This document shows, one piece after another, positions 18,884-60,549 of a stretch of 64,000 nt of DNA. The DNA is taken from contig KV918774.1 of NCBI GenBank assembly GCA_002049455.2, positions 372,001 through 436,000 on the forward strand. The letters run 5' to 3'. The notes beneath the pieces were generated by a model. That model was not told the DNA's origin, made no database searches, and saw only the letters and a program-made list of their open reading frames with translations. Numbering within the stretch: the first letter of the stretch is position 1; each line of letters starts with the position of its first letter. A program made the translations under genes and the position numbers. The DNA is from Porphyra umbilicalis. Lineage: Eukaryota; Rhodophyta; Bangiophyceae; Bangiales; Bangiaceae.

Positions 18884-21800
18884 TTAGTCCCTCGGACAGA
18901 AGGCATTCTCATAGTAATACATCGCTCGCCTCTCTTGCACCGAGGCGCTGTACCTCGCCGGTAGCGCCTTGACACCCTTGCGCTTAGTGAGCTCCGCAAA
19001 GTCTGGCACGACGTGGACGACGCGGCGAACGCGGGAGATGGGCACAGCCGACACTGACCAGTCGCCGTCCACCTCCGCCGGCACCTTCCACTTCAAACGC
19101 GTGCAGTCACGCTCTCCGAGCGGGCAGTCCTTGTCCGCCTGCACCTCCTCCATATTACAAACAATGGCCACATCCTCTTCCTTGAAGCGAATGAGTGCCC
19201 GCACCTCCCCGAAGTGGGTGGGTGCGGTGGACTCCCCGGTCTCCTCATCTGTCACTGGTGCCTCCCCGCTCACGGTGTAGGTGATGGCATCAAGCCACGG
19301 CCCCTTGCGACGATAGTCCATCGAAGCGCGCAGAGTCTGCCGCAGCCGCGTCCCGCAGTCGAGCATCGCGGAGAACGTGACCTGGCCGAGTACCGGGACT
19401 TTGTCGCTCGCACGCATACCGAGCACGGAGGTCAGGCGGCCGAGGCCCGGCCGTTGAGCCAGGCCGCCCACGGCGATGCGGGGCACCTTATGCACCGACC
19501 GCTTGCCCTCTGACGTGAGCTTGCCGCCGCGAGCAAGGGCACGACGGGCGCGGCGGAGCTTGTCCGCCTTAATGACGGCGGCGTCGATCTTGGCGTTCTT
19601 GGCGAGCACCGCCTGGGTACCCTGCGACTGCCTAGCAATCTGGGAGGTGAACGTACTCACCGCCTTGTTGGTCCTGTTGTAGAACCGCTTGTCCGTCTTG
19701 TGCCCCGCTTCATTGCTGCTCGTGTTGCCATTGCGGATGTTCCCGTGGTACTTGATGGCGCCAAGGATGTGCCTCAGGAGCTTGTGAATCTTCGGCGTGT
19801 GGACCTCCCCTAAGATGGGGCGCACAAAGTTCTTGATGAAGGATACGGCGTGGTCGGACAAGCTCTTGGCCTCATCAACGGTCATGTCGGGGGGGGTAGT
19901 AGCCGTTGTCCAGCCTGCAATGCGACCGTACAAGACCGCATACTCGGCGAACATCGCCGTCACAGCGTCCTCGAAAGGAGTGTCCCCCCAAACAGCCTTG
20001 TACGAGTCCCAGTCAAAGGAAAAACCGGGTGGCAGCTCGTCCTCGGACGAGTCCCCCCCCTCGTCAAAGGTGAGCTCGGGGACATCCTCCGTGGCGGCTC
20101 CCGGCGGCCCCGACGGCTGAAACACCTGGCTGTGGGCCCCCTGCCTCTGGGCCGGAACCTTTTCATTTGCTGCTGTCTTGGACTTGGCGCCATTCCTGCC
20201 CTTGGCGCACTTTTTGCGGCTGGTGCGCGCCGCCGACGCCTTGCTGTCAGCCGCCTCATCCGAGTCGTTCGACTCGCTGCCGTCCTTCGGCTCGCCAATC
20301 GAAAACACCTTAGCCACGGCGTGGGGCAAGATGAACACGCCGAGCCGCTGCTCCTCGCCGGTGAAGGACGCCTGCAGCTCATTGAGGGCGACGAGATACC
20401 TGTGGAGGTGCACGTAAGAATCGCATGGAAAACGAGCCGCAAAGGGAATACCAGTTGGCAGTACCGAGGCGGGGATGCAGTGGAAAGCATAGTCAGTACT
20501 TGCTATGGAGCATGCGGTCGTTGCAGCGCGGGGGCAGAACGAAAAACAAACGTAGAGGCCAGAAGCAGGGAAACGCACCCTGGTGCGTCCTTGCTCGCCT
20601 TGCAGCGTCGGCCCATCTCGTCAAAGCGTCTGTTGCACACACGGCACGCCGCTGTCGAGTTCAGCTTGGGCTTGTGGCCCTTGCATGCGTGAGAAAACAC
20701 GCGCACGAGACGATGCACCAACATGCGGGTGACGCCAAGGTCTAGTACCTGCGGCACGGGGTCGGACAGAAAGGAAAGGAGCGTTACAATGAGAACAGCA
20801 AGACAAGTGTCAATAATGGCCGACACCTGACGCAATGATAGAGCTGCACATCACAGCAATTGGCACACAAGAATAAGGATACATCAGAAGCACATCGGAG
20901 CACCGGACGGAGACGTACATGCAGAGCATCCAGACCTATCATCTTGTACAGCAGAAAAGGCTCCGTGGTCAGGCCCGCCATGCCGGCCAGGGCAGGAATC
21001 CTGCTGTGCGCGCTATGCTTCTTCTCGAGGTACAGGCGACGCGACGGCCTCTCTTTCTTGATGAGCAGGTTGGCCGCCTCAACCTGGTCCTGCGCCTCGG
21101 CTAGGGCGTCGCGGTCTGCGGCCTCCAAGGCCTGCGGTGCCCCCGCGAGCTGGACCGGCACCCGACACAGAGAGCAGGGAAAGGGAGTCTTGCCACCCTT
21201 CAGGCAGAGGATGCCCTTCTCTTCGGGTAAGTCACAAATGTAGAGCAACAGTCGAGGGAAAGCCAGCAGGGTGCGGTGTCCCACTCTGACCTTGACGCCC
21301 ACGTGACTGGCCGCCATGGCCGATCGAAAAACGAGATACAGAACTCGTTGTAAAAGGGCAGCACGGCGGCGCCTGGCGCGTACCTCCGCCCCAGGCTCCT
21401 TTCCCTTCTTTACGATGGGAATATAAGCGGCGGTGAGCCACAAGTCCTGTTCTGTAACCTCGTTTACAACTCGAATTCTTAACGGGTACAGGTTGTGTGC
21501 TGAGAGACAAAAACCAAAACATACAAAAATATCTTCCAAGACACAGAAAAGAAGAAATGGCAGAGAAATAGATGAGTTAGCATCCAGTGCATGCCAATCC
21601 AACCGCGGCAGCACCTAGGCCCATCGACGCACACACACCCTCGCCCGCCCCGCACTCCCCGCGACATCCAAACATACCGCCCGAGTCGGACACCCGGCTC
21701 GCGTCGCTGAAGCCATGAAGGCCAAGCACGAAGGCATTCTCATCGTTCTCGTTGATAACAGACGCCTCACAGAGTCTGAATGCGTCGCCGTCCATCGGAG

Positions 21801-22598
21801 ACTCGCGCTTGTTGGTGGGCGGGGCGGGGCGGTCACCGCCGCTCCAGAGCTTGACGCTCTTGGCCGCTCGCATGCGCTCGAGCGCCAGCTCCAGCACCGG
21901 CCGGAAGATGACCTGGAAGGTCTCACCGCCCTCAACCAAGTCAACCTTGAGCCACCCCTCATCCACGACCGCAGCGTCAATGTCGTCCCTCAACGCAGTG
22001 GTGAACGCCGTCGCGGAGTTGAAGGTGTCACGCATGCCCAAAAAGTGGCCGGCGTCGACTGGCTGGCCGGGTTTAGTGCGGTCCCATGCCACCAGCAGGT
22101 CAAAGAGCTTGGCTTGGTCGGCCAGAGACAGGCCCGCGCCGCCATGGGCCTCCATCGCGAAGCGCTCCACCAACCTCAAGCGAAATGAGTCGAACCTCCC
22201 TGGCAGGCACCCCTTACGCTTAGTGACGAGTGGGGAGTTGCTCTCCCAGTCGTCCATGTCCTCACAGTGCGCGCGGACCTCGGCCGCTAGCGTCGGGTAG
22301 TCGTAGCCAGTCGCCGTCGCCTCGGAGGCGCCATTGCCTCGCTTTCTCCTCTTGCGCGGCGGGCCGGCCGCCTGCTTCAGCCGCCGGGTTGCCTCGATGA
22401 TCTTGTCCATCTCCGCGACGGCGTTGTCGCCAGCGGCCTCGTCAAAGTCAAAGAGGTTTGGCCCATCTGTGAGGGAGTTGGCGGACGCGCCATTGGCCGC
22501 CACATGAGACTGCTGCGGAGAAAGCGGTGGTGGGGGCTGCGCAGGGGGATGGGGCGGAAGAGGCGGTGGCGGCAGCGGCGGCGGCAGCGGCGGCGGTA

Positions 22599-22633
<35 letters not shown>

Positions 22634-22866
22634 CGCGGCAGCGACGGCGGCGGCGGCGGCGGCAGCGACGGTGGCGGCGGCGGCGCCACGGGCGGCGGCG
22701 TCAAGGTGCTTGTCGCGCCACTTGTTTGCGGCGGAAGGCCACCTCCAACTTGGCGCTGTCTTGTCCTGTGGATTGTCTGGCGGTGCCAGACAAGCCCAGC
22801 ATATCCGTTGAGGACCTTTCCACAAAAAGAGCAGGTGAGCTTGGCAGACGTCGGGGGGGCGACCAT
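18884..22866 (-). CDS. CACTA/Plavaka-like DNA transposase, four exons
   Basis: Proposed exons are 22866-21678, 21499-20919, 20748-20579 and 20399-18884, giving 1151 residues. The introns (178, 170 and 179 bp) start GTATGT, GTACGT and GTGCGT and end CAG, and every junction keeps the codon phase. The N-terminus has one C2H2 finger (CSFCGKVLNGYAGLVWHRQTIH). A polyproline tract from a GGC repeat follows, then FRPVLELALERM and DGDAFRLCEAS. The next block, LYPLRIRVVN with an FPCSLCRVP motif, is typical of Tnp2/Plavaka transposases. Exon 4 contains PKIHKLLRHILGAIKYHGN with NEAGHK, then a C-terminal domain with CPLGERDCTRLKW and SRVRRVVHVVPDF. No terminal inverted repeats were found, so element limits are unknown. 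Superfamily placement rests on motif resemblance. Confidence 0.8.
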
Positions 22867-24539
22867 GGCCCGCCCGCGACCGCCAAAGGACGCGACGACC
22901 GACGAGTAGCTTGGCGCGACACAGGGGCACTCGCAGTCGACACGCAGTTGTACGCGTAGGGCGGGGGGGTGCTTGAAGTAGGACCGATGCACCCGTCATC
23001 CGCGCCTTGCCATGCCGGAGTGGACGGGCAAGAAGCAGCCAGCGCAGCGCCGCATCCGTCCCATAAGAACTGGTGCCGGGAGACGGGGTTGTCACAGCAC
23101 CAGCCCTCGGCGAGCAGAGAAAGCACGATAGACAAGCACACAAGGGCGCTCGGCGTATCAGTGCGTGCCTAGCAGAGCCCCCTGGAACCCTCCACCCGAA
23201 TGACCAGTGTCTGTCGACAGACACCCCAACCCGCTTCCCTCTCCCCCTCAACAGAGACGGCGCGGCGGCCTGCTCGTGCATCCACACCCAGTTGTCAGTC
23301 ATCAAAGCCACGAGGGCGGTAAGGTACGTACCGCTCTCAACGTCGCTCCACAACGGCTCCTAGCACTTGACAGCGCATCCAGTCGGCAAGGGTCCGGCAC
23401 CCATGCGTCAGGACCGGTGCCCGATTGATGGGACAGGGGCCTTCGCGGGAAAAACGGACCACTGTCGACACGGTCGCCAGCCGCTGTCGTGGAAACGGCG
23501 CCGTCAACCCAACAGCAGGCGGACAGTTTGGGGTACAGCTCCCTGCGGAGCACCTCGTCAGCCCCTCGGGCGAGGCGGCGGGCGGAACGCTCAGACCACG
23601 CTGTCTCTCCGACAGCAGTCGCAGCAGCGAGGCTTCAGCTTCCCCGGCGCGCGCTCTCCTGCGATTTTGGCCACACAGAGCCGTCGATCGGACAATCGAC
23701 CGACTTGTTCAGACTTGAATCTGATACGACTGACATACTTCAATTAATTACAGTGCTCTGCAGCCACTGTGAGTGGCGTTCGGCTCCGAGATTGACAAAT
23801 CTCGCGCGGATCGACCGCGAGGCAGCAGTCCCGCAGCAAGGCGCGCGCGGCTTCTGGGCCAGCCTGGAGCCCCGCGCGTGTCGTCGACTCAGAGGCGCCA
23901 CGCTCGGGCGACCTGAGCGCGCGCTTGTACCGAGGCTCACCGTCCTGGACCCAAGCGCCCTTACGGCCCTTCTCCGCCATGGGATTCTCCAAGACGCCGG
24001 CGTTTGACCGGTCGCGATGGCTTTGCCCGGCGTCCCGCCCACCGCTCGCGAGAGCCTACCTGGCTTGTTGTCGTGGGGCTCCGGCTGCCTGTCTCCGCTG
24101 CGCTCTTCTCGCGCGGAAACCGCTTTTCGGGGTACGTTTGGGCTGCTGCTCTGGTGCAAAGGGGGAGACGGCGATCGGACAGTCGTTCCTACTGGTTGGG
24201 CTCGCGCCATTTTTTTGGGTACTGGTGGGGTTCTCTGGGCGCTATTGACCCCCTTGTCTCCTGGACGGGCCGCGTTTGAACCACCCGCGCTCACTCGCGC
24301 GCCTACTGAGGCTGACCAGCCTCTTTCGCAACAGGTGCTCAGCATTGTCTCTTGGCGCCGTGGTAAGCTCCCTCTTTTCGGATTTTGGCGCGCTCATTCA
24401 TCCCCACGGCTCGCGGGGCGCAGGGGTTGGCTGGCCGCCAAGCGTCGCAACGGTACCCGTTTTGATGCAGGGAGCGTGGGGGGCTGAGGCGTCCACCGCA
24501 CGGTCCGCGTGGGTGCTCGGCTGGTGGGCGGCGCACGCC
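22867..24539. other. No gene recognised
   Basis: This is the upstream region of the CACTA/Plavaka-like gene and of the ORF at 24540. Frames that stay open here have no coding character. An AATTAATTA stretch near 23744 is the most AT-rich point and could mark a promoter or element end. The divergent layout means both flanking genes would draw their promoters from this interval. Confidence 0.4.
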
Positions 24540-26341
24540 ATGGAGGATGAGCTCATAAGCGTGGGTGCTACGCGCGAGTGTCTTCTGGCGTTCAGTCCCC
24601 ACCTCCAACCCCAACGCCACCTTTCCACTCCGAGTCGCAACCTGCTTTGTCACCAATACCATCTGTCACTTGCACCCCCTCCATCTCCTTCTGCCCCACC
24701 CCGGGTATTACACCCTGTCTCCTGGTCCGACGGCGCCATCTCGTGGGGCTCCGCACCTCCCCACGATATGGCGCCTGCCGCACGTCCTCAAGCCAATGCG
24801 GCAACACCACGCTCGCACACTGGCGGCCGGCCGGCGACTGGTGGCGCTCATCCCTCGGCGGACGCTGCCATGGCGGCGTCATCGTACCAGTATCAGGCGC
24901 TCCCCCACTCCCTGCCTGTCTTGGAGCACGCGCCGTACAACTTTGGCTCCGGTGCCTACATCTCGGGCGGTGACTCGGAGGCGTTGGTCGGAATGGCGCA
25001 TGAGTTCTTCTCGCAGGCGCCTTCTCAGACGGCTGCGCGCAGCCCGGCGGATGCAGCTGCCTCTGCCGCGTTGGCGGTGCCCGCCGCTACCCCGCTCTCA
25101 CCGGCCGCGTCGCGGGTTATGCGGACCTACCAAACCCCGTGGCGCCCGGAGATGATTGCCGAGGGGGCCTTCAGCTCCTCGGTGGGCCATTCGACCGCGA
25201 ACGATGAGGACGCACTCGTCGAAGCGTCGATGGCGCGCATTGATACCACAGCACCGAGTCGTCCGGCACGTAACGTGGGAGCGAGCTTTGCTCTCTCGGA
25301 GAGCCCGACGCCGCGCAATGCTGCGCCTTCTGTAAGCCGCCCGGGCCCCGGCTACCGCAAGAGAAAGGCGTCGGTCCCGTCGCTTTCCTGCTTGCCTCGG
25401 CTTGCTTTCGGGGCAGCGGGCGCCAAGACGGTGAGCGGCGTGGCGGAGGTACCTGCCCGTACGGTGGGTGCGCCGTCGTCTGCCGGAGCTCAACATGCGG
25501 CGGCACCACGCTCCAATCGTGCGTCAGCGTCTCGGACCACCACCGGCACGACTGCCGCTGCTAGCAGAGCCGCCACCAAGACCGCATCGTCCAAGGCCGC
25601 CTCGTCCAAGGCCGCCTCGTACAAGGCCGCCTCGTCCAAGGCCGCCTCGTCCAAGGCTACCCCTCCCAAGGCCTCATCATCCAGTAATGTGGAAGGGGAG
25701 GCCGTGAAGGGGATGCTGGCGCTGGCGGGTATGCGTGAAGGCCTGGAGGGGCTGCTGTCGGGCTCCGACAATCAGACGGTGGCTTTGGCGGGCCAGTCGC
25801 TCGGCGCGCTCTTCAAGGTGGTGAAGAATCTCGAGGTCACTAAGGCCGCCGTGCCACATTCGAGTGCGACAAAGGCCCCCCTGCACCCGGCTACCGTCGC
25901 GGCGGGAGAATCCCCCGAGCAGGACGCCCCGCCGACGTCAAAGCGCTTCAAGACGACGACGTCTGCGGCGGCGCTGCTTCCGCCTGCTGAGCCCTCCAAG
26001 TCCGTGGCAACGGGCAACGCGCCCGTCATCGAGCCGCAGCCCGAGGTCGTCGCTGAGCCCGCGCTGCGGGTGCCGCCGATCAGCACGGCCATGCGGGCCA
26101 CCATTGCCAAGGCCGCTGCCATTACCAAGAAGCAGGCCGAGGGCCTTGCGACGATGGTCGTCGCGCGCCGGCTGCTGAACCCGCGCTACAAGAAGATACT
26201 GGCGTGGGCGGCCACCACCCAGGACATGTTTCCGTCGCCCAATGTGCGGCAGCAGATCATCATTGACGCGGTTGTCGAGGTGTCCAAGATGACAAACGAC
26301 GAGGCTTCAAGCTGGCTCGGGGATCTCATTCTTGCACCTAA
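24540..26341 (+). pseudogene. Unknown large ORF, 5' part, interrupted by the Harbinger element
   Basis: From ATG 24540 the frame runs to the TAA target site (26339-26341) and continues in frame at 35838-36882. Together the two parts give 948 residues. The protein has a Ser/Pro/Ala-rich N-terminal half and a Lys/Ala/Ser tract (ASSKAASSKA repeats, 25587-25672) like histone H1 tails. A predicted helical segment follows (GMREGLEGLLSGSD...), then a region of better complexity (AEGLATMVVARRLLNPRYKK, EVSKMTNDEASSWLGDLI). As it stands, translation would run into Harbinger sequence and stop at 26606. I do not recognise the family. The uninterrupted frame on both sides suggests a recent disruption. An ATG at 24768 is an alternative start. 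Confidence 0.75.
25587..25672 (+). repeat. 15-bp coding tandem repeat (ASSKA units)
   Basis: About six copies of GCCTCGTCCAAGGCC with minor changes encode a Lys-Ala-Ser-rich tract. The period is a multiple of three, so the frame is kept, unlike the 85-bp array at 27130. Confidence 0.85.
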
Positions 26342-26521
26342 GAGCATTCCCAACAGTGTCGGGCCAACGCCATATTGGGCACACGTTGCAGAAACGTGTC
26401 TCAAATTCGCCGTTGGCCAGTTCTCGGGGCGGGTAACAATGTCGAACGTGCACGCGGCGTTGCCAACGGAGGTCAAGCGAGTTAAAACGCGAATGTACTT
26501 GCGTCCGATTCGGGGTCGGAG

Positions 26522-26592
26522 CCGTTGGCCCCAGGGCCAACGAGTTGCCAACGGAGCCTCCGTTGGCAACTCGTTGGCCCTGGGGCCAACGG
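26522..26592. repeat. 71-bp perfect subterminal palindrome of Harbinger copy 2
   Basis: Two 35-base arms flank a central C at 26557. Each arm contains repeated GTTGGC/GCCAAC words that also recur through both ends of the element. It would form a strong cruciform or hairpin 180 bp from the left end. Confidence 0.95.
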
Positions 26593-27129
26593 GTTCTGTG
26601 CTCTGATTGGTCCATCGCGGTTTCACGGGGTTAAATGAGTGACAAGTGGCAGTTCATATTGTCCTCAGATTGCCCAATTTATTATATTTTTGTTTCGACA
26701 GCCACCCACGGATGGAATATTGTACCTCTCGGAACTGGACGGCCGCATGCCATCTCGACCCCAGAGCCCGGATCGTTGAAGTGTGTCACGTATCTCTCGT
26801 GCGGTGGCGTGTGGCCGAACTCGCTTGCGGGCCTGTCGGACACGCGGCGCGATCGCACCGACACTGGTAAAACAACTGGATCGGAGCGCTCGTGCGGGCA
26901 CACGAGGCGGGGCCGGGCCACAGTCCCGCGCCCGGTCGCCAAATGGCCGCACCTGCGGCCACGTAGTGAACTGAGCAGAACCCTCCACCCTTGACAGCAC
27001 CCCAGGGCACCCCTGACAACCGCCACACCCCCACAGCCACCCACAGCCCACACAACACAGACGCCTGGGCGGCCAGAAATACCGCCCTCTCTACCACCCA
27101 CCACCGCATCCCGCGCGCGCGCGTACTGC

Positions 27130-29400
27130 CCCCCCACCACGCCACCCGCGCACACCGGCACCCCCGCCGCCGCCCCCACGTCGCCGCCGCCCCCGCCGAC
27201 CGTTGCCGCCACCCACGCCACCGCCACCGACCGCCGCAGGCACCCACGCTACCGTCCCCGTCGTCGCCGTCCGCCCCCCCGCCCCCGCCGATCGCCGCCG
27301 CCCCCGCCGACCGTTGCCGCCACCCACGCCACCGCCACCGACCGCCGCAGGCACCCACGCTACCGTCCCCGTCGTCGCCGTCCGCCCCCCCGCCCCCGCC
27401 GATCGCCGCCGCCCCCCGCACCGGCCGCTGTCGACGCCGCCCCCGCCGACCGTTGCCGCAACCCGCGCCCACGCCACCGACCACGACCGCCGCTCGCCCC
27501 CCCCGCCCCCGCCCATCGCCGCCGCCCCCGCCCCCGCCAACCGTTGCCGCCACCACCGCCGCCACCGCCGACCGTCGTCGCCCGTCGCCCCCCCGCCCCC
27601 GCCCATCGCCGCCGCCCCAGCCCCCGCCAACCGTTGCCGCCACGACCGCCGCCACCGCCGACCGTCGTTGACGCTCGCCCCCCTCGCGCCCGCCCATCGC
27701 CGCCACCCCCGCCCCCGCCAACCGTTGCCGCCACGACCACCGCCACCGCCGTCCGTCGTTGACGCTCGCCCCCCCGCCCCCGCCCATCGCCGCCACCCCC
27801 GCCAACCGTTGCCGCCGCCCGCGCGGCCACCGCCGACCGTCGCCGCGGCCCGCCTTCCCCCCCCCCGCCCATCGCCGCCGCCGCCGCCCCCGCCAACCGT
27901 TGCCGCCACAAGCGCCGCCACCGCCGACCGTCGTCGCCCGTCGCCCCCCCCGCCCCCGCCCATCGCCGCCGCCCCCGCCAACCGTTGCCGCCACCACCGC
28001 CTCCACCGCCGACCGTCGTCGCCCGTCGCCCCCCCCGCCCCCGCCCATCGCCGCCGCCCCCGCCAACCGTTGCCGCCACCACCGCCGCCACCGCCAACCG
28101 TCGTCGCCCGTCGCCCCCCCCGCCCCCGCCCATCGCCGCCGCCCCCGCCAACCGTTGCCGCCACAAGCGCCGCCACCGCCGACCGTCGTCGCGGCCCGCC
28201 TTCGCCCCCCCCGCCCATCGCCGCCGCCCCCGCCCAAGCCGACCGTTGCCGCCACAAGCGCCGCCACCGCCGACCGTCGTCGCCCGTCGCCCCCCCGCCC
28301 CCGCCCATCGCCGCCGCCCCCGCCAACCGTTGCCGCCACCACCGCCGCCACCGCCGACCGTCGTCGCCCGTCGCCCCCCCCGCCCCCGCCCATCGCCGCC
28401 GCCCCCGCCAACCGTTGCCGCCACAAGCGCCGCCACCGCCGACCGTCGTCGCGGCCCGCCTTCGCCCCCCCCGCCCATCGCCGCCGCCCCCGCCCAAGCC
28501 GACCGTTGCCGCCACAAGCGCCGCCACCGCCGACCGTCGTCGCCCGTCGCCCCCCCGCCCCCGCCCATCGCCGCCGCCCCCGCCAACCGTTGCCGCCACA
28601 AGCGCCGCCACCGCCGACCGTCGTCGCCCGTCGCCCGCCCCGCCCCTGCCCATCGCCGCCGCCCAAGCCGACCGTTGCCGCCACAAGCGCCGCCACCGCC
28701 GACCGTCGTCGCCCGTCGCCCCCCCGCCCCCGCCCATCGCCGCCGCCCCCGCCAACCGTTGCCGCCACAAGCGCCGCCACCGCCGACCGTCGTCGCCCGT
28801 CGCCCGCCCCGCCCCCGCCCATCGCCGCCGCCCCCGCCAACCGTTGCCGCCACAAGCGCCGCCACCGCCGACCGTCGTCGCGGCCCGCCTTCCCCCCCCC
28901 GCCCATCGCCACCGCCCCGTCGCCCAAGCCGACCGTTGCCGCCGCCCGCGCGGCCACCACCGTCCGTCGTTGCCGGTCGCCCGCCCCGCCCCCGCCCATC
29001 GCCGCCGCCCAAGCCGACCGTTGCCGCCGCCCGCGCGGCCACCACCGTCCGTCGTTGCCGGTCGCCCGCCCCGCCCCCGCCCATCGCGGCCGCCCAAGCC
29101 GACCGTTGCCGCCGCCCGCGCCGCCACCACCGACCGTCGTTGCCGCTCGCTTCTCCCGCCCCGGCCGATTGCCGCTGCCCAAGCCGACCGTGGCCGTCGC
29201 CCGCGCCGCCACCACCGTCCGTCGTTGCCGGTCGCCCCCCCCTCCCCCGCCCATCGCTGCTGTTCTCGCCAACCGTTGCCACCTGCGCCTCCGTCGCCGT
29301 CGTCGCCGTGCACCTCCCCGGCGCCACCGACCGCCGCCGCCGCCACCACCCGCCGGAATCACCGTCCCCGCGGCCGACGGCGGCCCTCGCCGCCCGCCGT
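27130..29400. repeat. GC-rich tandem array with a period of about 85 bp inside Harbinger copy 2
   Basis: The word AACCGTTGCCGCCAC recurs at 27980, 28065, 28150, 28325, 28410 and 28585, a spacing of 85 bp or close multiples. Units differ mostly in C-run length and in ACAAGC versus ACCACC. About twenty units are present. Because 85 is not a multiple of three, each repeat shifts frame, so the long proline/arginine ORFs (up to 793 residues on plus and 858 on minus) are by-products. It is homologous in style, but not in unit, to the GCC-rich interiors of the other two copies. Confidence 0.85.
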
Positions 29401-29678
29401 CGCGTCACCGACCCCCGTCCTCGCCATCGCCGTGTGGCCCGCGACGACGCCGGTCGCTACCGACTTGTGCGTTTCCCATTCAATCGTTTTCGACAATGCG
29501 TTGCACTTGTGTGTGCGGAGTACCGGGTGTTGTGCGGGGGAGTACGCCAGCGAGTGTGGCTTCGACGTGGGATGCAGTATCTGACATGAAGTGCCGTGTC
29601 ACCGCGATTCTGTGCTTCCTGTGGCATTGTTGGTCGGTGCGTTCCCCTGCAATCCTTATTTCTTTGTTGATGCAGACC

Positions 29679-31541
29679 ATGAACGTCCACGACGAGGAGC
29701 ACGGCGACGACATGGGGGGTGCTGTGGACCAGGACGACCTCTCCTCGGGCCTCGCGATGGCTGTGAGCCACCATCTTCGGCTGCTGCAGTTGGCGCGGCG
29801 GGTCCGCGGTTGTCAGCGCCTGCGGCGACGGCACCGCGGGTCGGTTCGTGGGCGCGCGCCCAACAAGAAGCGCGACTTCAACCTCGGGCTGCGCAACATT
29901 TTGCGCGACTACTGGGGTGTGGACGGGGAGCCGCCCGTCTTCGGCGAGGCGGACTTTGAGAGCCGGTTCCGAATGCCACGCGCTGTCTTCATGCGCGTCT
30001 ACAATGACATAAAGGACGAGCCGTTTTTCCGCCAACGCGTCAACGCCACCGGGCGACCCCAGGCGCATCCGCTTCAGAAGGTCGTCGCCGCGCTGCGCGT
30101 TCTTGGCAACGGCGAGGCCGCGGACCGCCCCGATGAGTACGTCCGGTTGTCGAAGTCGACCACCAATGCCGCCGTCAAGAGCTTCATCGAGTTCATCGTC
30201 AACAAGTACGAGTCGACCTACCTGCGCGCGCCGACGAACGAGGACATCACGCGCATCCTGGCGTTCAACAAGGACCGGGGCTTGCCCGGCTGTATCGGCA
30301 GCTTGGACTGCAGCCACTGGGAGTGGCACGGCTGCCCGAAGTCGGCGGCGGGACAGCACAAGGGCAGGTCGGGCAAGCGGTCCATTGTCCTGGAGACGGT
30401 GTGCGACCACGACCTCTGGGTTTGGCACGTCTTTGCCGGCTCGCCAGGAAGCAACAACGACATCAACGTCCTCAAGCAGAGCCCTTTGTTTTCTCGTGTC
30501 GTGCGCGGCGAGTGGCCGCCACGTGACTTTTCTTTTGAAGTGAACGGGCGGAGGTACACGTATCTTTACTATTTAGTCGACGGTATCTATCCCTCTTACC
30601 CCTTTCTAGTTCGCCCCCACCAGAACCCCGGCACCCCGGAGGAGCTTGAGTTCAACGCCGTACAAGAAGGCGCTCGCAAGGAGGTCGAGCGCCTGTACGG
30701 CACCATGTACCAGCAATTCAAGGTGGCTCTCCACCCCGCGCGCCACCACAGCGTGGCGCACCTCATCCTCACGGCCAAGGCCGTGTGCATCTTGCACAAC
30801 ATGGTCGTGGAGGCGCGGCGGCCATCATTCGTCCACAACATTCGGCGGCATGGCGCAGATGTCGACATTGGTGGTCACGGTGGCGGCGTTGCGGGCGACG
30901 GTGAGGGCGCGGGCGCCGGTGCCGCCAATGGCGGCGACGGCAGTGACGTCGGCGGCGGTGAAGATGGTGGGGATAGTGGCGCCGGCGGCGGTGGCGGCGG
31001 CGGGGATGGTGGCGCAGGCGGCGGTGACGGCGGCGGCGGCGGCGGCGGTGGCGGCGGTGGCGGAGGTGGCAGCGGTGGCGGCAGTGGCGGCGGTGGCGGG
31101 CACGGCGGGGGTGGCCCCGCAGCCGTGGGCGGTGGTGACGCTGGCGGCGCTGGCGGCGGGGATGGTGGCGACGGCGGTGAGGATGCTGGGGAGGGTGGCG
31201 CCGGCGGCGCTGGCGGCAGCGATGGTGGTGGTGCCGGCGGCGGCGGTGGGGATGGTGGCGACGGCCACGGGGGCGCTCGGGGTGGTGGCGCCGGCGACAT
31301 TGGTGGCCGAGGTCGTCCGTCTGGGTCATCACGCGGACGTGTTGGTCGGGCCGCTGACGGTGTCCCAGCTGACCCTGCGCTCCAAGTTAACCAGGGCATG
31401 CTTCCTCCCCCCGGTTCCTTCTCCGACCTCCTTACTTGGGTGCAGGCGACGGACCCGGCCGTCGGTATGAACTTGAGAAAGGATCTCACTGCACTTGCGT
31501 GGGCTCGCCGACAGGCACGGCGGTCACGCGCTGGCGAGTAA
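29679..31541 (+). CDS. PIF/Harbinger DDE transposase
   Basis: This is the nuclease that cuts and joins the element at TWA sites. From ATG 29679 (MNVHDEEHGDD...) it has 620 residues. An in-frame ATG at 29670 is an alternative, and the CAG just before 29677 could be a splice acceptor. The N-terminal part is Arg-rich (RRHRGSVRGRAPNKKRDF), followed by the helix-turn-helix-like region common in the family. Catalytic residues are Asp210 in GCIGSLDCSHWEW, Asp261 in GSNNDINVL, and most likely Glu337 in ARKEVERLYG. The domain ends near SVAHLILTAKAVCILHNMV. After that comes a Gly/Asp-rich tail of over 150 residues encoded by a GGC-type repeat (30880-31300), unusual for the family. The frame is intact, so the enzyme may be active. 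Confidence 0.93.
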   Translation: MNVHDEEHGDDMGGAVDQDDLSSGLAMAVSHHLRLLQLARRVRGCQRLRRRHRGSVRGRAPNKKRDFNLGLRNILRDYWGVDGEPPVFGEADFESRFRMPRAVFMRVYNDIKDEPFFRQRVNATGRPQAHPLQKVVAALRVLGNGEAADRPDEYVRLSKSTTNAAVKSFIEFIVNKYESTYLRAPTNEDITRILAFNKDRGLPGCIGSLDCSHWEWHGCPKSAAGQHKGRSGKRSIVLETVCDHDLWVWHVFAGSPGSNNDINVLKQSPLFSRVVRGEWPPRDFSFEVNGRRYTYLYYLVDGIYPSYPFLVRPHQNPGTPEELEFNAVQEGARKEVERLYGTMYQQFKVALHPARHHSVAHLILTAKAVCILHNMVVEARRPSFVHNIRRHGADVDIGGHGGGVAGDGEGAGAGAANGGDGSDVGGGEDGGDSGAGGGGGGGDGGAGGGDGGGGGGGGGGGGGGSGGGSGGGGGHGGGGPAAVGGGDAGGAGGGDGGDGGEDAGEGGAGGAGGSDGGGAGGGGGDGGDGHGGARGGGAGDIGGRGRPSGSSRGRVGRAADGVPADPALQVNQGMLPPPGSFSDLLTWVQATDPAVGMNLRKDLTALAWARRQARRSRAGE

Positions 31542-32109
31542 TGAGGGCTCGTATGTGCCTGTGGGTGTGTGTGCATGTGTGTGTGTGTTTATTTGTCAAT
31601 GACTTGTTCTTTCGTCAAAGCCGCATGGCATGTTCTGTGTACCAATCGAAGTCCCCATGTCGGAGTCACGACTAGCGGCTCATGCGAATGCTGGCGGCCT
31701 GCGCCCTCGCATCGCGTATGACAGGCAAGGTGTTTTGCACCTGCAATGCGCAACTGATGCGCTTTCCATCTCATAGGGCGTTGCCAAGACAGACTTTACC
31801 CGTGCTTGACTCACGTGCGGAACGCGCCCGGCCATGATGAACAGCAGGGGTCGCAACTGATGGCGCATACTGCAAGAAAACACACAACAAAGCTAACAAA
31901 AGGAGCACCGCTTGCGACGCGCTAGCTCCAACACAGGCATGCGACTGCACCCGACCACACCAAACAAGGACAATGTGGGTGACCTGCAATGTCTCCCATC
32001 CGTCACACATGCACGTCCGCCGCACTAGAGTCACTGGCACACAGCAACGTCCTGCGGCATGCGTCTCACAATCACTCCAGCGGTCAAACCCTCCGCACCC
32101 CAAAGGTCC
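31542..32109. other. Intergenic region between convergent Harbinger genes
   Basis: It holds the 3' ends of both genes. A GT-repeat (GTGTGTGTGCATGTGTGTGTGTG, about 31561-31588) follows the transposase stop. No further gene was seen. Confidence 0.5.
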
Positions 32110-34532
32110 TCACTCGTCCTCTTCATCATCAGTGACCTCCTTGTTCACAGCACCGCCGGTTCGCGCAGACACAGCGCCCGTCGTCCGGACCGTACGTCCC
32201 GCGCCGCGACTGCGCATGTCGCCACGCGCGGTAGGCGCCGTGACGCTGCTCCCGCCTCCCACGTCCGGCCCAGTGAGGTCAATGGCTGCCTGGTTCTTGT
32301 CGATGCGCGCCTGCCCCACCTTGGACTTGGCCGCCATCGCGTGGCGGCCGCGCGCCAGGCGCACGCGCTCTGCAGAGCCTCTCTTGTCCAGCCCCGACGC
32401 CTCGGCCACATTGGTGGTCGCGTCGCTGTCGTCGCTTGATGCGACGACCGGCTCCTTGCCGCCCCCCGCGGCCATCGCGGCCGACGCGGCCGCAGCTGCG
32501 CTCGCGCCCGCTGCAGTGGCCGACTTGGTCGATGGCGACGCGCCCCGCACCGCGACCGCACCGCTGGCCACGGCCGCCGGCGCCGTGGCATTGATGGCCG
32601 CCATGCCGATGTTGAACATGTCCTTCCGCATGGCCTCAAAGAACGTCTTGGCCTCGTCCGTGCCCTTGTTCTCGGCCAAGTTGAAGAACGCGGCCGCCGC
32701 GCGCTTGGACTCGAGCTGCGTCCGCTTGGCAGCCTCCGAAACCATCGCCTCCATCGTCTTTCTCGAGCGCACGAGCTCCACACCGAGGACGCCCGCGCTC
32801 TCTTGCATGTCCTCTTTGTTGTTGCGCATGCGCTTGGCCGCCTTGACGCCCATGTCCGGTCGCGGCTGGAGAGCGGGACGCTTCCCGCGTGAGGGCTTGT
32901 CGCCGCCGCCGTTGCCATCATCGCCGCCGTCAACGTCCAGCTGACCACCAATGCCGTGAAAGCGGTCGGCGACGGCGTTGGCGTCGGCCGCCGCCCCGCT
33001 GAACTTGTCCATCTCTCTCAGCACGCGCCACATCGGGATGCACGCGCACGTCACCACGTGACCGGTCCGCTCCGCCCGCGCCTTTCCCTGCCGCTCGCGC
33101 TCGTCGTCCGAGCACGCGTCCTGCCGCACGGCTTGGTACGCCGACACGCCAGAGAAGAGGCCCGCGGCGGCGCGCACGAGGTCCTCCTCGGTCAGCCCCC
33201 CCGTCAGCTGCTTCTTGTCGGACACCACCTTGAAGAAATGTGCGAAGCGCTGCACGTCGGGCGCGATCTTGCGCTCAAACTGCGTCTGCATGGAGCCCGC
33301 CGTGCGCTCGCTCCATCGGCCCTTCAGGTCACTGGGCTTCAGGCTCTTGGGGATGCGCTGCACAAAGTCCTCCTTAATGGTGTCCCAGAGACCGTCCTTC
33401 GACCAGTCCGCGCCCATGTCCGACCGCTGCGCCACCAACTTGAACGCCTCACAGAGAGCCACCTGCTCGTCGACCGTCCACACCTTTCCCTTGCCGTTGC
33501 CTGGGCCCTTCTTCTTGGCGCCTGCGCCACCCCCGCGGCGAGGACCGCCGCTCGCGCGGCGTCCTTGGTGCTGCGGCGTCGGCGCACCGCCGGTGCTGGA
33601 TGATGCGACGCTCCCGCCCGAAGACTGGTTCCACTCGCTCTCGTCACCGCCGCCAGCCCCACCAAGGTTCGACATTGTTGGTCGCGGCATCGCTCCCCGT
33701 CGGGTGCCGGCTGCTCGCTTCTCACGAGCACGGGTACGTCCCGACTTGTCCGACTCTGTGTCGCTTGGTGGACCGCGGCCGACCGGTGCGCTCTTGCCGG
33801 GCGCCCCGCCAGCACCGGCGCCAGCCTCTGACCCACTTGCGCTTCCGCGGGCAACCGGCGTGGCGGCCACCAATGTCGGCGCCACGGGGCCCGCTCCACC
33901 GGCGGAGCGCTCGTCCGAGGTAGCACGAAGGGCGCCAGAAGCAGCGGCTCCTCGAGGCTTGTACGGCACACAGCGGTCAGACAAGATGGGAGGGTTGGGC
34001 GGAGGAGTCTTGCCAGAAGCGAGCGCGTCTTTCACACGACACGCGTGCAAGCGCCGGACGAACTCCTCGACACCGAGGTTGCTGGCGCGCCGCAGGCCCG
34101 CCAGGTGCGGGCGCCGATCAGTCCGCGCCTTCTTCGAAGGGGTTGGAGCCGCCTCGTCGACCCCAATAACGTCGCTGCCACCCAGAGCGGCGCCAGCCTT
34201 GGCCGGCGCTACCGCGTCCACACCGGTGGTCGCTGCCGACGCAGGCAGCGACGCGCAACCGCTGGCAGCCGTGGTCGTCCCGCCCGTCGGGACGTCGCCG
34301 CTGCAGTGTCGGCGCCTGCTGTCGCGGACGGCAGCCGCAGTGCCGCTCGCACCTCGGGAGGCGCCGCCCCGCCCGTGCCACGGGCCGTAGCAGGCTCGAG
34401 CCCAGGGGGGGGAGAAGACTCGTCCAACGGGTTGCGCACCCGCTGGTAGCGAAAGCCAGGAGGTAGAGGGGGGAGTGGGGGAAACGGCGGGGCGTCGCCA
34501 TCGGCCGACTTTGAAGGGGGGGAGTCGGGCAT
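32110..34532 (-). CDS. Myb/SANT-like Harbinger accessory protein
   Basis: Harbinger elements normally encode a DNA-binding partner that carries the transposase to the element ends; this gene fits that role. The domain WTVDEQVALCEAFKLVA...GLWDTIKEDF...DLKGRWS (about 33485-33300) has the Trp spacing of Myb/SANT-like, NAM-associated proteins. Upstream is a Ser/Gly/Ala-rich region with KKARTDRR and AREKRAAGTRR basic patches. Downstream is a long helical, Lys/Ala-rich part ending in a VTDDEEDE acidic tail. The main frame is open from 34656 to 32110 but has no early ATG. The likely start ATG 34532 (MPDSPPSKSADGD) is in another frame, which must switch near 34290 through a short intron or an indel. 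The first 80 codons are therefore uncertain. Confidence 0.8.
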
Positions 34533-34656
34533 GGCGGCTTGCTGTGTCGCGAGACGTACGGCACAGCGACAGCAGTGGACACACCGTCCGTCGACGGCGA
34601 AAAAGGGCGGATGCACCGCCGTTGTGGAACGGGCCGCAGAGAGCGGGCACGTTCAA

Positions 34657-35437
34657 CGTACACCTTCACCCGTGCGGTCCCCGCAAGCATACAGCCGAAA
34701 GCACAGGACCTAAGTCGACTGACATTGTTGGTTGCCCCCATGCTACCTGCCAACGACGACTGCGGCACCGCCCCCAATGGCCCTCCCAGGCGCACTCAGA
34801 ACGGTGCGACCGGGCCACAAAAGTGTGCCGGACCCCACAAACGGCGTTCGTGGACTGCCTGATCGGATGTCCCGAGAGGCTCACACGAGCCGTCCGTTGA
34901 CAGGCCCGATGCCCCACGAGACCCGTGACCCAGAGGGAGGCTGACGGTCGGTTTCCTCGACAGGCGTGCACCGTACCTCTTGATCTCGGCGCCGGACACC
35001 TGGGGGCCCGCCGTCAGCCATCACGCACTCGCGAGTGAGTGGACGGTCGCACTGAGATATTGTTCACGAGGCTGTCAAGGACACCGCCCCGAAAGCCCTG
35101 GCACTGGTCCCCACGTCCCGGGGGACACACCACGGACGCTCAGGTGGACACACACGAGTGCCAATGAGACCGCCAGCGCGATCCATTTCTCAATTCTGGC
35201 CCGTCCTCGGCCCTCTGGAGGCACCCAAGGCGTCACAGGAGGAGTGACTGCGCGGTGCAATCGGTCTGACTCAGCAGATGGGGGCAGGCACGCAGCAGAG
35301 GTGCACAGGGGCGCAGCCCTTGTGCCACGCGCATGGCTCTCGAGCCACCCGTTTGCGCGGTTTGTCAGGCCACTGTGGCCGCTGGCGACGGTTCGACCGC
35401 CATGATTCAGGCTCCAACACCTTCCACAGCATGGGGC
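34657..35437. other. Harbinger copy 2, region between the Myb-like gene and the right end
   Basis: No coding sense. It should contain the promoter of the minus-strand Myb-like gene. The final 400 bp (35438-35834) is the conserved right end with several GTTGGC words. Parts of 35270-35440 are also shared with the copy at 36933. Confidence 0.5.
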
Positions 35438-35837
35438 GGTGCGACCGCAACACACGTCACGCACTCGAGCGGATTCGATCCAGATTGGTACCGAAAGGCC
35501 TCCACGTGTCTCGCTAGATTGCCTTGATTTGGGCGGTTTGGGCTCCGTTCACACGCTTTCCGTGACATGTTCGGCACGTATTCGACGGACGTCTATTCAT
35601 TTCGATACTGGCGACGACGCTGATACGTGTCCTCCGTTGGCAACCACGCAGTGCGGCCAACAACGTCGAGGCCAACGGCGCTCAGATCTTTGAAAGGTAG
35701 CCCACTCTGTTTCACCCATTACATTGCCCGTTGGCAACGCGTTGGCCCGTTGGCAACTGACCACTCGCAGGGCCACACGTAGCGGTTTCATTTCACCGTT
35801 TCAGACCGTTGGCCCGACATTGGTGGGAATGCTCTAA

Positions 35838-36882
35838 GAAGAGCCCCAGCAAGAAGCGGTTGCGTGCAGGCGAGCAGCTGGCGAAGCAAGTCAGGAACAA
35901 GACGGAGAAGATTCGTGCTGGCCAGCCTCTTGGCCAGATTTTTTCGCACGTTGTCGCTCACTTCAAGGAGCTGGTGGTGGATGGGTGGGGCCCCATCGCT
36001 GCAGGAAAGCGTGTCGCCAATATGACGGCCGAGGAGGCCAACTCGTGGCGTCCCAACAACGCGTACTCCAAGACGGCGAATGGACGCAAGGGCATCATCC
36101 ACGGGCTGGCCAAGGGCTTTAAGTACCTGGGTGCGGCACGCCGCGTGCAGGAGGCGTCGGGCGTCGGCACGGACATGGTGCTGACAATCCTCTTTGGGCA
36201 CTACGGCCTGGCCGCCCGCTTTGTGTGGGAGGCGCTGACTACGCAGTACCTCCGCTCGGACGCCAGTGGCCCGGACATCTACCGGTACAAGGCGTACGTG
36301 GCGCAGGTGATCGAGCACGACAGCTACTTGCCGAAGCACGCTAACGAGGAGAACGGGCTAATCATTGTGGACGGCGACAACCCAGCTCGGGCTGCGTTTG
36401 AGTTGGAGTTTATGCCGGTGCCAACTCCGGCGGCGGGTGCAGCGGCTGGTGAGCCGGTGGTTGGGGCGGCAGCTGCCGCTTTGAATGCTGCCGGGGACGA
36501 GGAAGCGATGCATGCCGCATCTGTGGGTGCGGATCTTGCCGGTAGCGGCGGGGGGGGTGATGCGTATGATGGGCGGGGGGGTGGCGACGGTGAGCCCTAT
36601 GCGGCCGGGGCTGCGGTGCCACCGCCGGCTCCCGTGGTGGCGGCTGGGCCAGCGGCGTCCGTGCCGTTTACGGGTCCCGCCGTGCCGCCGGTGTTCGGGC
36701 CTGTGGTCGTTGCGCCGGCGGCGCCCATGGCCGACGCTGGGGCGGCAGCTGCAGCCGCCGAGACGCCCCCGCTGACTGCGGCAGATGCACGGGACCGAGT
36801 GGCAGAGATTATGGCCGTGGCCCAAGCGCAAGTCGCGGCGCTGATGGCGGCGGTACCGAGACATGGCGAGGATCGTGACTGA
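35838..36882 (+). pseudogene. Unknown large ORF, 3' part, downstream of the Harbinger insertion
   Basis: It continues the frame of 24540-26341 after removal of the element and one TAA: ...LILAP then KKSPSKKRL. The first 170 residues have good complexity, with a Lys/Arg-rich helix (KKRLRAGEQLAKQVRNKTEK) and a folded-looking region (GQIFSHVVAHFKELVVDGW, FGHYGLAARFVWEAL, YRYKAYVAQVIEHDSYLPK). The tail is Ala/Pro-rich and ends with a helix (ARDRVAEIMAVAQAQVAALMAAV). No known catalytic motif was recognised. The stop is at 36880-36882, 47 bp before the next Harbinger copy's duplication. Confidence 0.75.
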
Positions 36883-38599
36883 GCCGACACTTTGGCTGCC
36901 ACCCGCAGATGCCGTACGGCGCTGTGCTTTTAGAGCATTCCCACCAATGTCGGGCCAACGGTCTGAAACGGTGAAATGAAACCGCTACGTGTGGCCCTGC
37001 GAGTGGTCAGTTGCCAACGGGCCAACGCGTTGCCAACGGGCAATGTAATGGGTGAAACAGAGTGGGCTACCTTTCGAAGATCTGAGCGCCGTTGGCCTCG
37101 ACGTTGTTGGCCGCACTGCGTGGTTGCCAACGAAGGACACGTATCAGCGTCGTCGCCAGTATCGAAATGAAGAGGCGTCCGTCGAATACGTGCCGAACAT
37201 GTCACGGAAAGCGTGTGAACGGAGCCCAAACCGCCCAAATCAAGGCAATCTAGCGAGACACGTGGAGGCCTTTCGGTACCAATTCGGATCCAATCCGCTC
37301 GAGTGTGTGACGTGTGTTGCGCCCGCACCCCCTCAGGTTGTGGAAGGTGTTGGAGCCTGAATCATGCCGGTCAAACCATCGCCAGAGGCCACAGTGGCCT
37401 GTCGAATCGCGCCATTGGGTGGTCCGAAAGCCGTGTGCGTGTCACCCTCAACTGTGTGCGTGCCACCTTAGGCTGACGAGGGCGACTGCCAAGGCGCCGG
37501 CACGCCCTGTCTCCAGGCTGTGCTGTCCCGAGAAGGCCAAGACTGGGCCAGAAAGGGTCGATAGGGGGCAGTGACTGAGATCTAGGCACTTCTGAGTGCT
37601 TGTTTGTTCACTTTTGTTGTTTTCTCCTGCTATTGTGGGCACTGCTGGCAAGTGCGAGAGTGGAAACGTTGACAGCCCAGGCAGCAGGCTCACTGTAGAA
37701 CCGTGCAATGGGTCGCCAACGCTTGAACGTTGTTGTTGGTGTTTGCGTGCTGCCCCGTCCTATGTGATAGCTGACCACAGGCTGGGACGCCAACCTGAAC
37801 CAAGCCCCACCTCCAGCCCGACCCCGGCCGCACCTCCAACTACGCCACTATCCCACGAGCAGCCCCCCCTCTGCCCCACCTGGACCCCTATCCCTGCCCC
37901 AGGTCCACCCCGGTGCGCCCCCACCAATCGGCAGCAGCAGGGCGCACTCACCAGCTAGCGACGAGCGCACCCTCCCCCCTGGCCTGCCAGCGCCGCCCCC
38001 CGACCGTCCCCGCGCAACCCTCCCCGCCGGTTCCTCCCCCCTCCGCGGCGACACAGAAGCGACCTGGCGGCCGGGGTACAGCCCGGAGCCCCCGGCAGCG
38101 GGCGGCGGACCCCTGCGCACGGTGGACAGCACGGGGCGGTGGTTGCGTCCAGTCGTCGCGACCACACGTGCACGCGGGTGAGATACCTCATCACCACACT
38201 ACCGTTTCTATTCATGGCGGCCACCGGTCTTTGCCCCTCGCAGGCAGCCGGCCACCGGTCTTTGCCCCTCGCAGGCAGCCGGCCGTGTCCCCTCTGCGCC
38301 ACAAATCCCCCTGTAGCGCACTTGCTGTGTGGGGTATTGCTGTTGCATGAAAATTTGCAGACCTTGATATCAAAACGCTCAGAGCAGGACATTGTTTGCG
38401 TTGTCCTCTGCCCGTTTCCGGACATGTCATTGGACAAGACTGCAGGTTCTGGCGCAGTTGATATTGTGTATATCTGCGAGTATTCTCAAGTGAGCAACTC
38501 CACTGCGCAAGCTCGAGCTGTGTGGTGGGATTTGGAAAAATACAATAATTTCGAGGGGGCTGCCGCCGTACGTTGACCTCGCAGATGATACAGCCGCAG

Positions 38600-41110
38600 C
38601 CACCCCACAGAGTAGGAGACTGGAGCGGGCAGCCGTGGGGAGGACGGGGGCGGCCACAGATGGCGGTGCTGGCGGTGGGTTCGGCGGGACAGGGCGCTGG
38701 GGGGAGTGGGGGCGGCGGTTGAGGGCGGCGGACGACGCAGCGCGGGCGCCCTTTGCGGCGGAGGGGGTCGCGAGGGACGGGGGAGGTGGGACGGGCTGGC
38801 AGTGTACGGCGAAGAGAGCTGTGGACCGGCGCGGGCGGCACACGACGGTGAAGGTGGTGGCGGTCACCGCGGCGGACGGCGGCTGGGGCGGAGAGGTCCG
38901 CTGCGGCGAGCGCGGCGGCCTAACCCCGCGGCCACGGCGTTGGCGGCGGACGCGGTGGCGGAGGACGGCGGCGGGGGCGGCGGCGGCTGGGGGGGCGACA
39001 GCGGCCGCAGCGGCGGCGGCGGCGGCAGCAGCTTCTGGGGCGGCGGCCGACGGCGGTAGGCTGTCGGGGTGAGCAGCGGCGGTGGCCTGTGGCGGCGGGG
39101 ATTTAGGGGGCTGCCGTAGCGGGGGGGGGGGCGGCGCACGGCTAAGTCGGCGGGGGCGGCGAGGGAGGCGGCTGGCGAAGGCAACGGCTGGGGCGGTGAG
39201 GGTGGCGGCCGGCGACGGTGGCGGGGGCCGCAGAGACAGGGGCGGCTGTCAACGGTGGCGGCGGCACGCGGTGGTCGCGGGGGCGGCGGCGGCGGGGTCG
39301 GTGGTCGGCGTCGGCGGGGAGGGCGGCGACTGCCGGGGCGGCTGATGGTGGCGGCGCGGGGCGCGGACGGTGCAGGCGTGGCCGGAGGCGGCGTCGGAGG
39401 CGGCGGTCGGCTGGAGCAGCGACGGCGAAGGCGGCGGTTGGCGGCGGCGGGGGCGGCAGAGACAGCGGGCTCGGCCGTCGGCGGTGGCGGAGGTGGCGGA
39501 GAACGTGGACGAGTCTGTCAGCGGGAGCATGCGGGCGGCGACGGCAAGAGCGGCGGTGGGGCGGCGGCAGCCGACGGCAGCTCGGGCAGCGGCGGCCGGG
39601 GGGGTGGGGGCTGCTGTGGCGGAGCCGGCCGCGGTGCCCGCCGTCGGCAGGGACGGCGGCGGTCTTCGGAGCGGCGACGACGGAGATGGGGGCGGGGGAG
39701 GGGTCGGCGATCGACGGGGCCGGCGGTCGGAGGGGGTCGTGGCGGCGCCAGTCGGCGGCGGCGGGCGGGGTGGCGACAGCGGGGGCGGCGGAGGGAGGCG
39801 ATTGCGGCGGTCGGAGGCCGCACGGGGGCGGCGGCGGGCGCGGCGACGGCGGGAGTGGCCGTCGCCAACGGCGGGGACTGGGGCTGTGGCGCGGACGGCG
39901 GTCGGCTGAAGCGGCGGTCGGCGGGGGCGGCAGCGGCAGCGGTCGGCGGCGGTAGGGGAGGCAGCGACAGCAGTGGCGGTGGTGGGGGCGGCGGTGGAGG
40001 GCCAGCAGAAGACGCGGGCATCGGTCGCCGCGGCGCCGGCGGTCGACAGTGGCGGGGGCGGGGACGGCGGCGGCGGGAGGGGCGGCGGCAGCAGGCGGCA
40101 TGGACAGGGGAGGCGCGGGCGGCCGACGACGGCGACGGCGGCAGGCTCAGCGGGGACGGCCGCCGCGGACACCGGCGGTAGCGGCCGACGGTGGCTGGGG
40201 CGGCGCGGGAGGGGTGGCCGGTGGCTGGCGGTGGCGGCCGTGAGGGCGGTGGGCGTGGCGGCTGCGAACGGCGGCGGCGGGGGGGGCGTCGACAGCGGGG
40301 GCGGCAGACGGAGGCGATCACGCGCGCGGCGTCGACGGCGGGGGCGGCGGTCGGAGGTGGCGGCGGGGGGGGCGAGCGGCGAAGGTCAGATCGGGGGCGG
40401 CGGCGGTCGGCGGCGGTGGCGGGGCGGCGACGGCGGGGGCGGCGACGGCGGGGGCGGCCGTCGTCAACGGCGGGGACCGGGGCGGCGGGCCAGCGGCAGA
40501 CGGCGCCGGCGGCCGACAGTGGCGGGGGCAGGGACGACGTCGGCGGGAGGAGCGGCGACAGTAGGCGGCATGGGCAGGACGGGCGGGGGCGGCCGACCAC
40601 GGCGACGGCAGCAGCGTCAGCTGAGGCGGCGGCGGCGGACACCGGCAGTGGCAGCCGACGGCGGCGGGGACGGCGGGGGAGGGGCGGCCGGCGCCTGGCG
40701 GCGGCGGCGGTGAGGGCTGCGGTAGTGGCGGCCGCGAACGGCGGCGGGGGAGCGGGGGGCGGAGGCCGACGTCGGCGGTGGAGAGGCGGGCGGCGGTCTC
40801 GGGGGAGGCGGGGCCGGCGGCGACCGGCAGCCGCGAGGGCGGTGGCAGCCGGGGGGGGCGCGGCCGACGCCGGTGGGGGCGGCCAGGACGGCCGGGGTTG
40901 CGGTGGGTGGGGTGGGGGCGGTGGCCGTCGGCGTGCGGGGGTCGCTGGTGCTGTGCCGGCGGTGGTCAGGGCGGCCGTGGGCACTGTCGTGTGCCACCGG
41001 CACTGCCGTGCGGTGCGGGAGGGGGGGGGAGGGCACGCACCGGCGCTGGCCACGGCCGCCACGCGGGCACGCGTGGCGGCATGAGCAGCCGCGTCGCTGC
41101 CTGAAGAGGG
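38600..41110. repeat. GGC-rich low-complexity interior of Harbinger copy 3
   Basis: This is the reverse-complement counterpart of 2470-4990. It yields long glycine/arginine frames on plus and proline frames on minus with no recognisable domain. It is treated as repeat DNA, not genes. Confidence 0.8.
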
Positions 41111-41455
41111 CCTGACGCGGGGCCGCTCGGCGCAGCCCCGCCTCGTGTGCCCCCTCATCAGCGCCGATCCTCTTGTTTTCCCAGTGTCAGTGTCAACGCG
41201 CCGCGTGTCTGATGGGCCCTAAATACCGTTCGGCCATGCGCCACCGCATGATTGATACGTGACACGCTCCAACGATCGGGACCATTGGGCCGAGCTGACA
41301 GGCAGCCGCCCAGTTCCGAGAGGTACCATATTCCATCCGTGGGTAGCTGTCGAAACAAAAGTATGATAAATCGGACAATCTGAGGCCAATATGAAGTGCC
41401 ACTTGTCACTCATTTAACCCCGTGAAACCGCGATGGACCAATCAGAGCACAGAAC

Positions 41456-41526
41456 CCGTTGGCCCCAGGGCCAACGAGTTGCCAACGGAGGCTCCGTTGG
41501 CAACTCGTTGGCCCTGGGGCCAACGG
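41456..41526. repeat. 71-bp perfect subterminal palindrome of Harbinger copy 3
   Basis: Two 35-base arms around a central G at 41491, identical in sequence to the palindrome at 26522-26592. Confidence 0.95.
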
Positions 41527-41754
41527 CTCCGACCCCGAATCGGACGCAAGTACATTCGCGTTTTAACTCGCTTGACCTCCGTTGGCAACGCCGCGTGCAC
41601 GTTCGACATTGTTACCCGGCCCGAGAACTGGCCAACGGCGAATTTGAGACACGTTTCTGCAACGTGTGCCCAATATGGCGTTGGCCCGACATTGTTGGGA
41701 ATGCTCTTACTATCCAAGCTCAGCTGCAACGGGTGGAGCAGAGCGGGGGCGGGG

Positions 41755-60517: not shown

Positions 60518-60549
<32 letters not shown>

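Follow-up and report, generated by a model that had tools for sequence, protein, structure and literature searches.

PIF/Harbinger transposons usually duplicate a TWA target triplet, and transposons of the En/Spm (CACTA) type encode two proteins, TnpA and TnpD. Nested insertions are common in transposon-rich genomes. Here we describe a nest of this kind in Porphyra umbilicalis (contig KV918774.1, positions 372,001 to 436,000 of the forward strand; this stretch of 64,000 nucleotides is referred to below as the window, and its contig as C14). A PIF/Harbinger element of 9.5 kb, which is long for the group, has very probably inserted into a TAA within the second gene of a Plavaka-type transposon, duplicating the TAA and cutting the gene (hereafter ORF2; ORF, open reading frame) in two. 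The nesting itself is ordinary in kind; more unusual is that a red-lineage alga has a Plavaka-type lineage, and that this lineage encodes a second, conserved protein.

Fungal PlavakaA elements have the ends 5'-TGT..ACA-3', and PlavakaB elements have the ends 5'-CATCA..TGATG-3' with a target duplication of 2-3 base pairs (bp) (PMC12730594). EnSpm-Plavaka elements occur in a green alga, and giant repeats flanked by Plavaka occur in Amoebidium (PMC12633428, PMC11244446). Harbinger families are described for the haptophyte Tisochrysis lutea in a report whose main text mentions neither Plavaka nor EnSpm nor CACTA (PMC5963040). A second Plavaka gene is not the subject of any of the titles and abstract openings surveyed, and the one considered here is not described in the available passages of PMC12730594, PMC12633428 and PMC11244446. 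The Plavaka-type element of the window can be compared with PlavakaB by its ends (CCATCG..CGATGG) and shares with Plavaka a transposase domain scoring above the cut-off and, as judged by eye, a putative C(2)C motif (CSLC). It differs in being found in an alga with red-type rubisco (its large subunit has red-type chains as its best matches) and in having a divergent second gene that shows no match to TET/JBP.

The 9.5-kb element is a real and exactly bounded PIF/Harbinger insertion (Table 1). The initial annotation had called it a Harbinger element between identical TAA duplications, and both statements are confirmed: the two triplets are present, the element has terminal inverted repeats (TIRs; GAGCATTCCCAACAGTGTCGGGCCAACG at one end and GAGCATTCCCACCAATGTCGGGCCAACG when read from the opposite side), and its ORF of 1260 amino acids (aa) matches the Pfam families PF04827 (Plant_tran; E=1.4e-60) and PF13359 (DDE_Tnp_4; E=7.5e-12), both over the cut-off. 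TIRs, a 3-bp target duplication, a transposase of this class and short relatives with common ends are all shared with PIF/Harbinger elements. Unlike theirs, the triplets of the present family are of the form TNA (30 ends). No Myb/SANT partner was recognised in a Pfam scan of the 848-aa ORF that could encode a second protein, the sole match of which is to NAM-associated (E=0.45, below the cut-off). The element as a chance composite was ruled out, as eight further places match it over about 7 to 9.5 kb; among the best 14 of 2,883 candidates, on which this count also rests, the nearest full-length sister has 96% identity and part-length matches go up to 98-99%.

The genome to which the window belongs (83.8 Mb, 665 contigs) was searched for an empty site using 239 bases to the left and 1,053 bases to the right of the Harbinger target. 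Each of these queries found two places, the window and a second contig (C143), with 97% identity for each on C143. There the two matches sit two bases apart, where the predicted site has AA: the junction holds a single TAA, reads CCTAAG (...CCTTGCACCTAAGAAG...) and is crossed by an uninterrupted frame of 859 codons from stop to stop. This natural uninserted copy bears out the exact target and the pre-insertion junction that had been predicted; in this one copy, the empty site does not depart from the prediction.

When the Harbinger element is left out, 24540-26341 and 35838-36882 join into 948 codons with one stop, the terminal one, so the rejoined frame of the initial annotation stands as an open frame. 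Its start was over-called, however: in C143 the 84th of these 948 codons is a stop (codon 172 when counting starts at 24276), and the first Met past this stop that the two copies share, at window 24870, leaves 838 codons. The two halves of ORF2 are, judging from its relatives, one protein. Among 77 of 79 matches in the genome (C143 included, two window matches left out), 32 cover 20 residues to either side of the junction; 26 of the 32 are free of stops, 14 of these belonging to frames of 700 codons or more, and the other 45 matches are partial and not decisive on the junction. An alignment of C143 with eight other sequences is continuous over the junction in 9/9 cases, with an invariant proline just before it, and the halves were not seen as separate proteins.

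ORF2 lies in a larger block with TIRs of its own, which its sequence identifies as a second transposon, of Plavaka type (CACTA/EnSpm group), with the ends CCATCGTC..GACGATGG. The TIR recurs, with up to four differences, at loci of other family members. The model of its transposase gene has three introns, the GT-AG borders of which were picked out by eye; the spliced model matches PF18759 (Plavaka) with E=2.8e-8 and 33.8 bits, and the open frame that surrounds exon 2, taken by itself, with 28.7 bits (cut-off 26.3 in both cases). As candidates for the D, D, E residues and for the motifs C(2)C and H(3-4)H of Plavaka, CDLP, CSLC, HKLLRH and NEAGHK are visible by eye in the model. At E up to 0.01, the genome has at least 123 matches to PF18759 (123 of 169 candidates). 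A block of 421 bp that is absent from C143 (Table 1) was rejected as an insertion in the window, as it contains transposase coding sequence, and is interpreted as having been lost from C143. A proline-rich stretch of the C143 transposase (window 22562-22655) also matches the GC-rich positions 60508-60648 on the other strand with 82-87% identity, a match that is probably due to low complexity. Elsewhere, on the contig C57 (about 199613-199670; locus L071, about 3735-3790), two Plavaka-type elements lie end to end with 7 bp between them.

ORF2-like sequence is found at 75 places, the window and C143 included (79 matches minus the window left half and three second pieces). Relatives of the transposase were collected using the last-exon frame as a query, and 74 of 140 matches were kept, the other 66 being taken as second pieces; neighbours may have been missed, these relatives being drawn from the best 76 of 464 candidates and the PF18759 matches from the best 123 of 169. 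A transposase relative lies within 20 kb of an ORF2-like place in 52 of the 75 cases, and the two are divergent in 50 of the 52, on the same strand in one and convergent in one, with a median gap of 6.3 kb between the matches. By chance, 2.6 such cases would be found on average and never more than 9 (2,000 random placements, contig borders ignored). For PF18759 the corresponding figure is 21/75 (17 of the 21 divergent), with about 4.4 expected. The pairing extends to ORF2 copies that are only 21-42% identical to the query. The initial annotation had regarded the rejoined frame as a large unrecognised protein that normal annotation would miss; a host gene is not supported, and the split ORF is the divergently transcribed second gene of a Plavaka-type transposon that is present in many copies. 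The interrupted protein belongs to the transposon, and is not that of an ordinary host gene, because a sister copy elsewhere in the genome carries the pre-insertion sequence.

Were the split ORF a host gene and C143 its other allele, the window would hold a heterozygous gene disruption. C143 is collinear with the block at 94-97% identity, and both Harbinger sites in it are empty. In a comparison of C143:1-42000 against 84 kb of C14 (threshold E 1e-20), however, this collinear identity was confined to window 18347 to about 42383, and three window blocks in that range are missing in C143 (21119-21539, the 9.5-kb Harbinger and 36932-41711). Beyond the block, the C143 stretches compared (about 17.5 kb and 15.2 kb) have no collinear match to the 84 kb; two stray hits there have 72.8% identity over 1,175 columns (to the transposase gene) and 78% over 174. 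Because homology ends at the Plavaka TIRs and the outer flanks are without a collinear match, C143 is a paralogous transposon copy and not the allele that the initial annotation had in mind. The recurrence of ORF2-like sequence near transposase relatives also speaks against a disrupted host allele, which we consider very improbable. Just as slight is the chance that ORF2 stays functional because the Harbinger element is removed like an intron or some other form of read-through occurs: the frame is open on either side of the target, but inspection of the two borders by eye shows no GT at the left end of the element and no AG at the right.

A greater, although still lesser, probability attaches to ORF2 being cargo that takes no part in transposition (either a host gene that was captured or a factor against silencing, with a role like that of the fungal Plavaka TET/JBP enzymes), an account that departs from the preferred one solely in the role of ORF2. 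Accessory TET/JBP genes are reported for hosts of two fungal Plavaka families in the available part of PMC12730594. No TET/JBP Pfam match was found in nine ORF2 sequences, nor in the scanned ORFs of the Plavaka unit (which was not scanned frame by frame), and the pairing with the transposase persists in distant ORF2 copies, which argues for a core role.

We return to the insertion of a Harbinger element into a transposon gene as the preferred reading. As the sequence shows, a transposase-bearing PIF/Harbinger element targeted the TAA inside ORF2, duplicated this triplet and split the reading frame into two parts. ORF2 of the window copy would be inactivated, as its left half continues into 88 foreign residues and then a stop, and its right half has lost the start (its first Met is residue 62); the modelled transposase beside it remains open. 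Because of the frequent pairing with the transposase, ORF2 could be an accessory protein of transposition, for example one that binds the repeated ends of the element, and might act as TnpA does beside TnpD in En/Spm. One transposase plus a second element-encoded protein are common to both systems; the window element is unlike En/Spm in consisting of two divergent genes. As for the recency claimed in the initial annotation, the Harbinger insertion postdates the divergence of the two Plavaka copies, which are about 5% apart; its age is bounded, not fixed, by this figure and by the 96% identity of the closest full-length sister (among the best 14 of 2,883 candidates). What the locus offers is an uninserted sister copy that agrees with the predicted junction and, beyond this, a view of a paired-gene Plavaka lineage outside fungi, in which the putative accessory protein encoded by the host transposon most deserves attention. 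Tentatively, and with slightly less than even confidence, we suggest that a Plavaka lineage with two genes exists in red-lineage algae. Its divergent transposase would typically be paired, in head-to-head orientation, with a partner protein of ~800-1000 residues that had escaped recognition and that transposition needs or is protected by; the window would then hold a natural knockout of the partner, made by the Harbinger insertion, beside an open transposase.

Several observations weigh against this account of the Plavaka element and its second gene. Of five Plavaka copies looked at, only that of the window has a clean target duplication (GCC on either side): C143 and one copy on C57 have no matching flank triplets, and in another C57 copy and a copy on C213 there are 3-bp repeats displaced by two bases. 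The PF18759 match is restricted to profile positions 101-271 of 325, and 23 of the 75 ORF2-like places have no listed transposase relative within 20 kb. The ratio of non-synonymous to synonymous substitution rates (dN/dS) between the window and C143 is 0.66 over the whole of ORF2, which is close to neutral. It is 0.63 to the left and 0.80 to the right of the insertion, 0.89 in the codons before the C143 stop (counted from 24276), and 0.36 in the core common to relatives (a value that counts only 9 synonymous and 10 non-synonymous changes) versus 0.79 outside it; these values lend weak support to selection on the core and do not date the insertion. No Pfam match was obtained for the two ORF2 halves, and no convincing Pfam relative among nine ORF2 sequences (three weak hits, in one member each, have E 0.043 to 0.23). 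A PDB profile search with ORF2 gave no relatives, and viral contigs gave two pattern hits and no ORF2 relative.

Table 1. Coordinates of the nested elements and their parts in the window.
Feature	Position	Strand	Basis or remarks
Plavaka-type transposon	18350..42409		24,060 bp with its two nested Harbinger elements counted in; C143 homology ends at or near the borders; TIRs
Plavaka left TIR, CCATCGTCTCTTTTGGGGACAAACG	18350..18374	+	Pattern hit
Plavaka right TIR	42385..42409	-	Pattern hit; further tandem copy at 42360-42384
GCC, possible left target duplication of Plavaka element	18347..18349		Sequence
GCC, possible right target duplication of Plavaka element	42410..42412		Counted from sequence
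Plavaka transposase gene (predicted), four exons	18884..22866	-	Exons 22866-21678, 21499-20919, 20748-20579, 20399-18884; start Met assumed
Block of 421 bp absent from C143	21119..21539		Spans part of intron 1 and exon 2 of Plavaka transposase
ORF2 left part, from first Met after C143 stop through TAA	24870..26341	+	Shared frame
TAA, left target duplication of Harbinger element	26339..26341		Sequence
PIF/Harbinger element, transposase-bearing	26342..35834	+	9,493 bp; target duplication, TIRs, transposase domain
Harbinger transposase ORF, 1260 aa	27759..31541	+	Plant_tran domain at about 30216-30821
848-aa ORF inside Harbinger element, possible second protein	32110..34656	-	Pfam scan
TAA, right target duplication of Harbinger element	35835..35837		Sequence
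ORF2 right part, severed from start	35838..36882	+	Homology to C143 and relatives
Second Harbinger-family element, 4,774 bp	36933..41706	-	TTA at 36930-36932 and 41707-41709

The Harbinger TIR pattern (at most two mismatches) has 122 hits on one strand of the genome and 129 on the other (251 in total; the reversed control gave none). At the 30 of these ends with loci, the adjoining triplet is TNA in all 30 (TAA 16, TTA 6, TCA 6, TGA 2), and the triplets of facing TIR pairs are equal in 9/11 and unequal in 2/11. The second Harbinger-family element of the window starts 50 bp downstream of the ORF2 stop and is missing from C143, where TTG stands; no Pfam match was found in two of its ORFs that were scanned. 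A third element of the family, of 4,647 bp, lies at window 1923-6569 and accounts for one of the unequal pairs, with TGA and TTA as its flank triplets, a mismatch suggesting that one end has recombined or decayed. The second and third elements each have ~0.5 kb per end in common with the 9.5-kb Harbinger (91-97% identity) and elsewhere only low-identity repeats, and their main mutual matches have 77-87% identity; both are read as non-autonomous relatives of it. A Harbinger-family end also occurs near position about 5198-5228 of the 9.5-kb element (window about 31539-31569), just past the transposase frame, at three other places (C107:33547/33548/38390, C24:194853 and C39:255030 in the match list), as if related elements had inserted there repeatedly or one nested composite had spread.

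The window also contains a Helitron at 7982-13965, made up of a PIF1 helicase frame (7982-10348) and a Helitron_like_N frame (10981-13965), both on the minus strand and recognised by Pfam.

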